Assembly: GCF_900115245.1 (NCBI RefSeq)
Contig: NZ_FOVT01000001.1
Span: forward strand, 496,001 to 560,000
Direction of reading: 5' to 3'
DNA: 64,000 bases
Origin: Mesorhizobium sp. NFR06
Lineage (GTDB): Bacteria > Pseudomonadota > Alphaproteobacteria > Rhizobiales > Rhizobiaceae
Part shown: positions 12,495-16,387 of the stretch, piece after piece
Layout of the letters: each line of letters starts with the position of its first letter
Numbering within the stretch: the stretch's first letter is position 1
Made by a program: the position numbers and the translations under genes
The notes under the pieces: model-generated
What the model was told of the DNA's origin: nothing
The model's input: the letters and a program-made list of their open reading frames with translations, nothing else
Database searches by the model: none

Positions 12495-13220
12495 TTGGCG
12501 GTCATCAAGGGAATTCTCTTCGACAAGGACGGAACGCTTGTCGATTTCAACGCAACTTGGCTCGGCATCGCCGATTTCATGGCCATGGACGCCGCCGAGG
12601 GCGATCGCTGGAAGGCCGACAGGCTGCTCGCCGCCGCCGGCTTCGATTTCGCCAGCAAGCGCTTCAAGCCCGATTCGATCTTTGCTTCCGGCTCGAATAT
12701 GGATGTCGTCGAGCTCTGGTTCCCGCGCTTGTCCAACGAGGACCAGATGCTGGCCGTTTCCCGCTTTAACGAAATCACCTCGGTGCAGGGCTCGTCGATG
12801 GCGGTGGCGCTTCCCGGCGTCATCGATTCGCTGCGGGCGCTGCACAAGCGCTCTTATCGCATGGGCGTCGCCACCAATGATTCCACCAGCGGCGCCGAGA
12901 AGACGCTGGCCACGCTCGGTGTCGCGCAGCTCTTTGACGCCGCCTTCGGCTATGACGCGGTGGCCAATCCGAAGCCGGCGCCGGACACCGTCGTTGCGTT
13001 CTGCGATCTGACCGGGCTGAAGCCGGGTGAGATCGCCATGGTCGGCGACAACCGCCACGACCTCGAAATGGCGCGCGCCGGCGGCTGCGGCCTGGCGGTG
13101 GGCGTGCTGTCCGGCACCGGCACGCGCGACTCGCTGGCGCCGATGGCGGACGTCATTCTGGAATCGGTCGCCGACCTGCCGGATTTTCTCGCGACAAGGG
13201 TGAACGTGCCGGTGGGCTAA
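12495..13220 (+). CDS. HAD-superfamily hydrolase, phosphoglycolate-phosphatase-like
   Basis: The 241-residue product starts at TTG, five bases after the pgi stop. Motif I is FDKDGTLVDF at the N-terminus (nucleophile is the first D), motif II lies in ATNDSTSG, motif III is the lysine in NPKPAPD, and motif IV is GDNRHDLEMARAG. The large helical cap between motifs I and II marks a subfamily IA enzyme such as phosphoglycolate phosphatase. The natural substrate cannot be fixed from sequence. The last 68 bases overlap the tail of the methyltransferase gene on the other strand. Confidence 0.88.
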   Translation: MAVIKGILFDKDGTLVDFNATWLGIADFMAMDAAEGDRWKADRLLAAAGFDFASKRFKPDSIFASGSNMDVVELWFPRLSNEDQMLAVSRFNEITSVQGSSMAVALPGVIDSLRALHKRSYRMGVATNDSTSGAEKTLATLGVAQLFDAAFGYDAVANPKPAPDTVVAFCDLTGLKPGEIAMVGDNRHDLEMARAGGCGLAVGVLSGTGTRDSLAPMADVILESVADLPDFLATRVNVPVG

Positions 13221-13923
13221 CGCGGTCTGCGACAAAAGCGAACACCGCGCTGGGCCTGGGTTCGCTGCCGCCGTTTCCACCGACATCCGGCACCTGGTAT
13301 TCGGCAAGCAGGCAAAGCCGTTGCCTGGGCAGCCAGGCGCGGCCCGGGTCGCCGACCAGCACATCGATGCCGGCGGCGAGGCAGCGGTCGAGGAACGGCA
13401 TCATGCGCTGCCCGACTTCCTGCGCGTAAAAGACATCGCCGGCCAGCACCAGGTCGACCGCCGGCGGCGGACCGGTCGTGACATCCTCATGACATATCTG
13501 GATAGCGACGCCATTGGCTTCCGCGTTGAGGCGCAGTGCCGCGACGCCGTTGCGGTCGACCTCCGCCGCGACCACCTCATGCGCCCCAGCCTTCGCCGCG
13601 GCGATGCCGACCAACCCCGAGCCGGCGCCGAGGTCGAGCACGCGCCGTCCGGCAACGATCGAAGGTCGGTCGAGGACATGGCGCGCCAGCACCGTTCCGC
13701 CGGCCCAGGCATAGGCCCAGTAAGGCGGCTGCGGATCGTTGCCGCTTTCATCGGCATCGTCCGCTTCGAGCAGCCGCCTGAGGCCGCTGCCGGGATGCGC
13801 CAGATAGAGCCTGATCTCCGGCAGCGAGGGCACTGGCGCCAGCCTCATGTTCGCCTGGATGAACGCTGCCGGGTCGAGCTTCTCGGTCCGCTTTCGCGTC
13901 GCGTCCTCAGAACGCGCGCTCAA
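13153..13923 (-). CDS. Class I SAM-dependent methyltransferase (ETFBKMT/Nnt1-like)
   Basis: The SAM-binding motif VLDLGAGSGLVGIAAAKAGA is clear, preceded by PPYWAYAWAGGTVLARHVLD and followed by VVAAEVDRNGVAALRLNAEANG and LVLAGDVFY, a pattern shared with lysine methyltransferases of the ETFBKMT/METTL20 type. The start is uncertain: a TTG at 13923 overlaps the stop of the upstream acyl-CoA ligase gene, which suggests translational coupling and gives 256 residues; the FIQAN motif starts about 25 residues later. The C-terminal 25 residues (after FAFVADR) are likely not part of the fold and overlap the HAD gene. The target is unknown; ETF-beta would suit the link with fatty acid oxidation. Confidence 0.8.
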   Translation of the reverse strand: MSARSEDATRKRTEKLDPAAFIQANMRLAPVPSLPEIRLYLAHPGSGLRRLLEADDADESGNDPQPPYWAYAWAGGTVLARHVLDRPSIVAGRRVLDLGAGSGLVGIAAAKAGAHEVVAAEVDRNGVAALRLNAEANGVAIQICHEDVTTGPPPAVDLVLAGDVFYAQEVGQRMMPFLDRCLAAGIDVLVGDPGRAWLPRQRLCLLAEYQVPDVGGNGGSEPRPSAVFAFVADRVSPPARSPLSRENPAGRRPIPE

Positions 13924-15923
13924 GCCTGTTCCCGCAGCGCGCGCCGCAGTATCTTGCCGACCGGCGTCTTCGGCAGCTCGGTGCGGAACTCGATATATCT
14001 CGGCCGCTTGTAGCCGGTCAGGTTCTCGCGGCAATAAGCCATCAGCGCCTCGATGGTCAGCGCCGGATCCTTCTTGACCACGAACAGCTTCGGCACCTCG
14101 CCCGAATGCTCGTCCGGCACGCCGATCGCGGCCACTTCCAGCACGCCGGGATGATGCGCCACCACTTCTTCCAGCTCGTTCGGATAGACGTTGAAGCCGG
14201 AGACCAGGATCATGTCCTTCTTGCGATCGACGATCTTGGTGTAGCCGCGCTCGTCCATGAAGCCCATGTCGCCGGATTTGAAGAAGCCGTCCTCGGTCAT
14301 CGCCTTGGCGGTCTCGTCGGGCCGGTTCCAGTAGCCGGCCATCACCTGCGGGCCGCGAATGCAGATCTCCCCCACTTCGCCGAGCGGCACATTGTTGCCG
14401 TCGTCGTCGCGGATGGCGATTTCGGTCGAAGGCAGCGGCAGGCCGATCGTGCCGGTGAAGTCGCTGGAGCTGAACTTGTTGGCGGTGGCCACTGGCGAGG
14501 TTTCGGAAAGCCCATAACCCTCGCTCACCGGGCAGCCGGTCAGCGCCTTCCAGCGCTCGGCAACGCCCTTCTGCACCGCCATGCCGCCGCCCAGCGTCAG
14601 GATCAGCGGCTTGAAATCCAGCTTGCGGAACTCCTCATTGTTGAGCAGCGCGTTGAACAGCGTGTTGAGGCCGGGGAAGATGTGCATCGGGTATTTCGCC
14701 AGTTCCTTGACGAAGCCCGGAATGTCGCGCGGGTTGGGAATAAGCACGTTCTGCGCGCCCTGCTGCATGCCCATCAGCGCGTTCACCGTCAGCGCGAAGA
14801 TGTGATAGAGCGGCAACGCGCAGATGAAGTTGAGATGCGCCGGCTTCGGCTTGATCGTGTAGGCATCCTCCACCCACAGCGAATTCTGCGCGACGTTCGA
14901 AAGCACATTGCGATGCAGCAGCGTCGCGCCCTTCGAGATGCCGGTCGTGCCGCCCGTATATTGCAGGAAGGCGATATCGTCGCTCGACACCGCCGGCGGC
15001 TTGAAGGCGATGGTCGCGCCGGTCTTGAGCACGGCGTTGAATTTGACGTGGCCGGGCAGCGACCATGCCGGAACCATCTTTTTCACCCGCCGCACGACGA
15101 GGTTGACGATGGCGCCTTTGAGCCCGCCCAGCATGTCGCCCATGGCCGCGACGATAACGAGCTTCACCGGCGTCCTCGCGATCACCGCCTGCAGCGTTCC
15201 GGCGAAGTTTTCCAGGATAACGATCGCCTGCGCGCCGGAATCCCTCAACTGGTGTTCCAGTTCGCGCGGCGTGTAGAGCGGGTTGACGTTCACCACCGTG
15301 TAGCCGGCGCGAAGCACCGCCATCATCGCCACCGGATATTGCAGCACGTTTGGCATCATCAGCGCCACGCGCGCACCCTTCTCCAGGCCTCTCGCCTGCA
15401 GGTAGGCGCCGAAGGCGGCCGAGAGCCGCTCGAGCTCGGCATAGGTGATCGACTTGCCCATGCACACGAAGGCCGGCCGCGCGGCGAATTGCTTGCAGGC
15501 GCCGACAAGGAAGTCGCCGATGGACTTGTAGGGCAGGGCGCCGATCTCGGCCGGCATGTTCTTCGGATAGCTCCTCAGCCACGGCTTTTCCGGCAGGCCG
15601 ACAGTGAGTTCGGTGATCTCTTTCGGCAGGGCCTTCGAGGCAGGCTTGGCGGCGCTCGCCGTTGGCGCCGTTGTCGCGGTTGCCGGCTTGGCGGCCGTTG
15701 CTTTTCCGGTTGCCGGTTTGCTGGCTTTTGCGGCTGCCGACTTGTCGGCTTTTGCGGTCGCTGCCTTGATCGCGGGCTTGGCGGCGGCCGGCTTCGCGGG
15801 CGCCGCTTTTGCGGCTGCTTTGGGCTTCGGCACGGCGGCCTTGGCCGTCTCGGGCGCATCGCTTTCGGCGGCGGCCTTGGCCTTTGCTTTCGCCGGGGCT
15901 GTCGTCTTGGCTGCTTTTGCCAC
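13920..15923 (-). CDS. fadD: Long-chain fatty acid-CoA ligase with Lys/Ala-rich N-terminal extension
   Basis: The GTG at 15923 has the site AGGGAGAGACAG and gives 667 residues. Residues 1-100 are a low-complexity tail of Ala, Lys, Pro and Thr in AKP and AAK repeats, like histone H1 or AlgP-type proteins. The rest is a full ANL adenylating enzyme: P-loop YTGGTTGISKGATLLHRN, GYGLSETSPVA, DRKKDMILVSGFNVYPNELE and the catalytic lysine in PKTPVGKILRR. It activates fatty acids with ATP and CoA at the membrane face. The tail is absent from standard FadD. Its charge suggests binding to nucleic acid, membrane or polyphosphate. It overlaps the downstream methyltransferase start. Confidence 0.9.
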   Translation of the reverse strand: MAKAAKTTAPAKAKAKAAAESDAPETAKAAVPKPKAAAKAAPAKPAAAKPAIKAATAKADKSAAAKASKPATGKATAAKPATATTAPTASAAKPASKALPKEITELTVGLPEKPWLRSYPKNMPAEIGALPYKSIGDFLVGACKQFAARPAFVCMGKSITYAELERLSAAFGAYLQARGLEKGARVALMMPNVLQYPVAMMAVLRAGYTVVNVNPLYTPRELEHQLRDSGAQAIVILENFAGTLQAVIARTPVKLVIVAAMGDMLGGLKGAIVNLVVRRVKKMVPAWSLPGHVKFNAVLKTGATIAFKPPAVSSDDIAFLQYTGGTTGISKGATLLHRNVLSNVAQNSLWVEDAYTIKPKPAHLNFICALPLYHIFALTVNALMGMQQGAQNVLIPNPRDIPGFVKELAKYPMHIFPGLNTLFNALLNNEEFRKLDFKPLILTLGGGMAVQKGVAERWKALTGCPVSEGYGLSETSPVATANKFSSSDFTGTIGLPLPSTEIAIRDDDGNNVPLGEVGEICIRGPQVMAGYWNRPDETAKAMTEDGFFKSGDMGFMDERGYTKIVDRKKDMILVSGFNVYPNELEEVVAHHPGVLEVAAIGVPDEHSGEVPKLFVVKKDPALTIEALMAYCRENLTGYKRPRYIEFRTELPKTPVGKILRRALREQA

Positions 15924-16387
15924 CTGTCTCTCCCTGTCGCCTTCGATCTGGGGCGCCCGCTTCCAGGGAAGCGTCCTCCACGCCTGTCGCGGTTTTCCCC
16001 GGGAAAATCCCGCCCGCCATCTATGTATTGCCTCTATCGGCGGCCGTGCAAGCCTTGCCCCTGCGGCAAGCCGGGGAAAGATTTGCCGTCGAAATCCTCG
16101 TGGTTGGAGGGCCTCCCGCATCGTGCCGGGGCGGCCGGCCGAGCCGAGTGGTCATACCGCATGCGCCGGTTCCGAAAGGCGGCCGATCAATAAAAAAATG
16201 CCGTCGTTAATAATGTCGTGAGCAGAAAAAACTACTCATTTTTTCTACTGCGGGAGCAAAAACTAGATTCTTTTCCTGCTTCCCATGGGGTACGCAAACG
16301 AGGTGTTCCAAAGGCGAAGAAACGGTGCTTATATGCGCCCTTCGCGAGCCTGATAGAGGGGCTTGGGAGAACATCAGGGAGTGCTCA
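15924..16387. promoter_or_regulatory. Divergent promoter region of fadD-like gene and dppA
   Basis: This gap of 464 bases holds no convincing gene. The part from 16190 to 16270 is much richer in A and T than the surroundings, with several A and T runs. A TTATAT hexamer at 16330-16335, about 50 bases before the dppA start, is a possible -10 box, but I see no clear -35 partner. Confidence 0.35.

Follow-up and report, generated by a model that had tools for sequence, protein, structure and literature searches.

The window analysed here is the whole stretch of 64,000 nucleotides from the genome of Mesorhizobium sp. NFR06. It carries a fadD gene whose product begins with a long Lys/Ala/Pro/Thr segment, followed downstream by a methyltransferase-like gene (Table 1). 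A preliminary description of this DNA had given the tail about 100 residues and placed its start at the same position (15923); both were right, and the strand, unstated there, is minus.

Table 1. Features of the tailed fadD locus, in window positions
Feature	Positions	Strand	Basis or remark
Tailed fadD gene	13920-15923	minus	GTG start at 15923, 667 aa (open reading frame translation)
Shine-Dalgarno-like GGGAG	15930-15934	minus	Sequence; ends 6 nt 5' of the GTG start
Lys/Ala/Pro/Thr tail, residues 1-99	15627-15923	minus	Composition, AF2 pLDDT, dN/dS
Linker, residues 100-114, up to invariant Trp115	15582-15626	minus	Ortholog alignment
Long-chain acyl-CoA ligase (FadD) core, residues 112-667 and stop	13920-15590	minus	Overlaps the last linker residues
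Methyltransferase-like gene, downstream of fadD	13153-13848	minus	PrmA and Methyltransf_16 (PF10294, lysine methyltransferase) among matches

Concerning the enzyme itself, searches with the whole protein matched PF00501 at residues 143-532 (E 4.9e-91) and PF13193 at residues 583-657 (E 7.2e-20). No further Pfam domain was found in the protein at E values up to 0.1, so the phasin domain PF05597 was not found either. The NCBIfam model PRK07059 (NF005463) covers residues 112-666 with 1023.9 bits, above its cut-off of 869. In an alignment of 45 rows, Trp115 is invariant, as are Y322-G328, G551-D552, D566-M571 and K657 (AMP-binding motif, FACS region and C-terminal catalytic lysine). The AlphaFold2 (AF2) model of the core is mostly confident and adopts the ANL fold, its best Foldseek matches are CoA ligases, and the closest sequences with a solved structure belong to acyl- and aryl-CoA ligases, including FadD13 (3r44). 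The intact FadD domain of the preliminary description is thus borne out by the domain matches, the PRK07059 score and the invariant motifs. Judged by its sequence, this is an ordinary FadD of the PRK07059 type, complete as a long-chain acyl-CoA ligase, with an N-terminal tail: catalytic core, motifs and fold are those of the ANL superfamily enzyme, whereas a tail of 42-289 residues, counted up to the tryptophan, is added here and absent from other FadDs.

Residues 1-99 are made up largely of 44 Ala, 20 Lys, 11 Pro, 10 Thr and 5 Ser, with few others, and contain no aromatic residue, Cys or His. For the window's protein, AF2 (45-row alignment) gave pLDDT values below 50 over residues 1-110, predicting an unfolded segment ahead of the ANL-fold core. 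We then defined a tail as at least 40 residues before the tryptophan with at least 12% Lys and small residues making up at least half, all lengths running to the tryptophan and including the linker. The same kind of tail was found at 124 loci, representing 122 distinct proteins. Their length is 42-289 residues (median 113) and all are basic, with a net charge of +7 to +58, or +0.10 to +0.28 per residue; total charge grows with length (r 0.93). Pooled over 14,002 residues, leaving out the last 16 before the tryptophan, the tails contain Ala at 0.365, Lys at 0.197, Pro at 0.117, Thr at 0.101, Ser at 0.073 and Asp plus Glu at 0.030, with Phe, Trp, Tyr and Cys together below 0.001.

All 146 genomes of the genus contain the FadD core. 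We read the sequence upstream of the core in 75 of these, 20 of which had been chosen for short open frames, and found a clean tail in 70. The tail that the preliminary description had wished to see checked in orthologues is therefore kept in close relatives. In L256 it is interrupted by N and a stop, in L261 the locus is cut by a contig end with the last part of the tail visible, and L217 has a short basic leader alone, of 32 or 55 residues depending on the start. Loci L222 and L255 possess the tail, and their reading frame is broken within or ahead of the core, pointing to a pseudogene or a sequencing error. No tail precedes five second copies of FadD from the genus, which show 59-60% identity. 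Genus and family counts leave out the window's own copy (L226), the other acyl-CoA ligases of its genome (L082-L088), the second copies (L275-L279) and one locus at a contig edge (L294); the family rows include L232, which is the same gene as L212, and L234.

In the GTDB family, 225 of 247 sampled genomes have the core. Among the 70 of 97 matching genera that were read, mostly taken in order of match quality from the best down, 30 contain at least one tail and 40 are tail-less by our rule, which also scores basic leaders of 27 residues (L199) and 21 residues (L231 and L233) as tail-less. At the level of the order, a search at E 1e-150 matched 26 of 199 genomes; 20 of these lie outside the family, and their 22 matches, from 11 genera of other families, are all tail-less. 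The 40 family genera and the 11 genera of other families indicate that FadD chemistry does not need the tail. Six of 80 named loci are tailed: four from Mesorhizobium, one from Chelativorans and one from an unclassified alphaproteobacterial MAG; those from Rhizobium, Sinorhizobium (including L007 and L023), Bradyrhizobium, Burkholderia, Massilia and Pseudaminobacter are tail-less, and the annotated S. meliloti FadD, beginning about 14 residues before the match, has no tail. In a plasmid collection 85 records matched, and among the 15 matches listed the alignment begins at residue 102 or later. We also inspected 28 tail-less loci, drawn from both clades, for a tail relocated to the C-terminus. 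None was seen in 27, and the remaining locus, L076, breaks off short of the end of the gene. Besides the genus of the window, one genus (g51) is mixed, with a 64-residue basic tail in L174 and a 28-residue leader without lysine in L173, and its two species form a natural pair. The N-terminal extension of another locus, L180, is 316 residues long, begins MAKAVK and is near charge balance (44 Lys plus Arg, 40 Asp plus Glu); it was not counted as a tail.

A FastTree phylogeny was built from 233 cores, including 91 with a tail. On this tree the tail label switches 14 times, with at least 8 of the switches forced by starred branches. One large clade (support 87, not starred) holds 86 of the tails, and five tailed rows lie outside it. 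Short basic leaders such as MAKK occur in several tail-less relatives, which makes it plausible that the tail arose by growth of such a leader.

Whether the tail is maintained was examined with 23 close Mesorhizobium orthologues, in which the linker (residues 100-114) is well conserved. Over the alignable Lys/Ala part of the tail dN/dS is 0.37 (pS 0.316, pN 0.137), about five times the value of 0.075 for the core, the pairs behind both ratios not being independent. Lys to Arg changes occur at 2.2 times expectation, Lys to acidic changes at 0.58 and bulky outcomes at 0.49; over all tail codons acidic outcomes stand at 1.21 times expectation (203.5 against 167.9) and so are not rarer. These classes carry little weight, as the four-fold spectrum is shaped by codon preference and the pairs are not independent. 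High-GC low complexity was considered as the sole cause and is a weak explanation, since tails are found where the GC3 of the core is 0.49 (L189) or 0.57 (L193) and 78 tail-less cores have a GC3 above 0.8. On these sequence comparisons, the tail frame is coding and under constraint, though far less than the enzyme core, and the tail is almost certainly kept by selection.

We also considered whether the tail might be an artefact of start assignment, the real protein starting 3' of it. The start codon is GTG, and this is the one point found in favour of that explanation. Starts were assigned by the best Shine-Dalgarno score, with Ala-Lys starts preferred within one step of that score; without the preference 2 of 124 starts change. 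Ala-Lys follows the start used in 114 of 124 tailed loci under this rule, and when Shine-Dalgarno score alone decides, 112 begin x-Ala-Lys and all 124 tails keep at least 42 residues. In the window, the sole alternative in-frame start before Trp115 is a GTG at 15833, within the tail. The next, an ATG at 15557, falls past the invariant Trp115 and Tyr119, and initiation there would lose invariant residues. An upstream ATG at 16121 was rejected as the start, as it has no clear Shine-Dalgarno sequence and G+C by codon position is 0.70/0.62/0.61, against 0.61/0.41/0.88 in the core. Together with the conservation and dN/dS of the tail, the in-frame starts led us to reject an artefact, which we consider extremely unlikely. 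As far as sequence tells, an internal start that removes the tail, named beforehand as an outcome that would overturn the preliminary description, is not supported, and the tail is very probably translated, as that description had supposed, given its start, frame, dN/dS and conservation.

A start codon other than ATG (GTG or TTG) is found in 113 of 124 tailed genes (for example L081 and L089-L119) versus 23 of 149 tail-less loci, 126 of which start with ATG. This contrast is confounded by ancestry; with tree-independent pairs, the link between start codon and tail was not significant (median p 0.25).

The arrangement of lysines in the tails is regular. We selected 42 representatives whose cores stay under 85% identity and shuffled each tail on its own. 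Of 1,120 Lys-Lys gaps, 536 are of 4 or 5 residues (207 expected from the shuffles) and 64 are adjacent lysines (221 expected). Both deviations, more gaps of 4-5 and fewer adjacent lysines, appear in 41 of the 42 representatives, and z exceeds 2 for spacing in 33. The window's tail itself has 10 of 19 gaps at 4-5 residues, where 3.7 are expected, and no Lys-Lys. KPAA units, scattered along the tails, number 228 in all 124, against 42 in shuffles.

Tails of this type are known from other proteins. The spacing of polyphosphate granules requires the KPAA domain of AlgP, and DNA is bound by KPAA peptides (PMC9239181); for the AAKP repeats of PhaF, non-specific DNA binding is described (PMC5658603). 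The FadD tail shares with AlgP of Pseudomonas aeruginosa a Lys/Ala/Pro-rich, strongly basic and predicted disordered character and KPAA units, which are enriched in the FadD tails, and with PhaF of Pseudomonas the AAKP-like units and strong positive charge. A lysine about every 4-5 residues is common to all three, the spacing in AlgP and PhaF being deduced from their published repeat units. The likeness to AlgP-type tails noted in the preliminary description therefore goes beyond composition and includes lysine spacing. In AlgP, however, the domain is C-terminal on a small helical protein, whereas the FadD tail is N-terminal on an enzyme, and its units are scattered where those of AlgP appear to form a tandem array. 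PhaF differs in its PHA-binding phasin domain, of which FadD has none. Mycobacterial FadD13 is an acyl-CoA synthetase held on the membrane through a basic element (PMC8253482), but that element is a surface patch of the folded domain and not a tail. Mosquito ribosomal protein S6 is likewise a housekeeping protein with a histone H1-like extension (PMC548281), but it is eukaryotic and its extension is C-terminal. Enzyme and tail type are thus each already known; their combination, a FadD or other acyl-CoA ligase with such a tail, was not found in the literature searched, mainly by titles and abstract openings.

The genome of the organism was then searched for the lysine motif by pattern. There were 27 matches against 17 for a reversed control, implying that many of the matches are due to chance. 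The motif also occurs in what we take to be the C-terminus of Ku, trigger factor and ribosomal protein L21, and its presence in the latter two indicates that it is not specific to DNA binders. A small H1-like protein (L304, contig C6:290100-290323) begins MAKTTTKAPAAK and contains long AAKPAAK repeats; the FadD tail type may derive from it or have it as a partner. With the tail as BLAST query, nothing else in the genome was found below E 0.1. As the H1-like protein found by the pattern search was also missed, this negative means little.

The methyltransferase-like gene was considered as a modifying enzyme of the tail. Of 56 tailed loci that have at least 900 bp of downstream sequence, 35 have it next to fadD, as against 0 of 98 tail-less loci. 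These 35 comprise all 32 same-genus genome loci with enough sequence and L001-L003. It is missing from the other 21, among them L063 and L006, both labelled Mesorhizobium, and other tailed genera. Tempting as a possible protein methyltransferase next to a tail rich in lysine is, this distribution makes it a local partner at best, and we do not claim it as part of the tail system.

The match of make-up and lysine spacing with the AAKP domain of PhaF and the KPAA domain of AlgP led us to read the tail as a polyanion tether that may dock FadD on nucleoid DNA, RNA or polyphosphate, the most likely reading, though a tentative one, to which we assign a probability of about 0.45. An intrinsically disordered polycationic domain of the PhaF/AlgP kind would then sit at the N-terminus of an ordinary FadD. 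Through many weak electrostatic contacts it would dock the enzyme on a long polyanion, so that FadD would be concentrated at, or spread along, this scaffold while the folded core activates fatty acids. Both polyanion binding and the choice of DNA, RNA or polyphosphate over membrane are inferred by analogy. We count against the tether the tail-less genera of the family and of the order, the five tail-less second copies, the motif in the putative trigger factor and L21, the nearly charge-balanced extension of L180 and the acidic outcomes that are not rarer.

A polycation of this length could attach to acidic surfaces of any kind, and the main rival reading has the tail dock electrostatically on anionic membrane, which is rather unlikely in our estimate. 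Membrane-binding basic clusters differ from these tails in their hydrophobic and aromatic residues and in their clustered lysines; the near absence of bulky hydrophobic and aromatic residues from the tails and their avoidance of lysine clusters speak mildly against membrane docking, and so do the tail-less Sinorhizobium and annotated S. meliloti FadDs. It stays the main rival owing to two reports: S. meliloti FadD has membrane-lipid fatty acids among its substrates (PMC7232532), and FadD13 is held on membranes by a positive patch, a negative-patch variant failing to bind (PMC8253482). Tailed cores are also the more basic, with a median net charge of +8 (n=124) versus +3 (n=145) for tail-less cores, a difference confounded by ancestry. 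Alternatively, the tail may be a weakly selected spacer with no specific partner, either a solubility aid or entropic bristle or a slippage-prone filler tolerated on a free N-terminus. Its fast change in sequence and length, its dN/dS relative to the core and the repeated changes of the tail label on the tree would fit such a spacer, which we nevertheless regard as unlikely, as dN/dS is well under 1, make-up is stable across 30 genera, lysine spacing is regular and high GC on its own is a weak explanation. Least supported, and very unlikely, is targeting to PHB granules, in which the tail would place FadD on the granules or tie these to the nucleoid, on the model of ACS1 and PhaF. PHB in rhizobia is short-chain and not a FadD substrate, and no PF05597 phasin was found in the genome when this family alone among phasins was searched, although there is one PhaC_N match. 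A review (PMC5658603) counts ACS1, an acyl-CoA synthetase, as one of the PHA granule proteins of Pseudomonas, but also states that PhaF reaches granules via its phasin domain, and FadD has PF00501 and PF13193 only. Of the membrane lipids, polyhydroxybutyrate granules and nucleoid put forward in the preliminary description, the nucleoid (or polyphosphate, which that description did not name) would, by analogy, fit the tail type best.

Were the polyanion tether correct, the main fatty-acid-activating enzyme of one branch of the rhizobial family might be wired to the nucleoid or polyphosphate, which would link fatty-acid recycling in space with the chromosome or with starvation granules, and tail length (net +7 to +58) might tune this coupling by genus; we hold this wider proposal to be doubtful. 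Since the annotated S. meliloti protein is tail-less, work on S. meliloti FadD may not transfer to Mesorhizobium. The 42 diverged tails lend themselves to the question of what is maintained by selection in a basic, disordered domain, here charge and spacing rather than sequence. With tailed fadD in 30 of 70 genera read and tail-less relatives that offer natural controls, it is directly testable whether bacteria activate fatty acids on a polyanionic scaffold.
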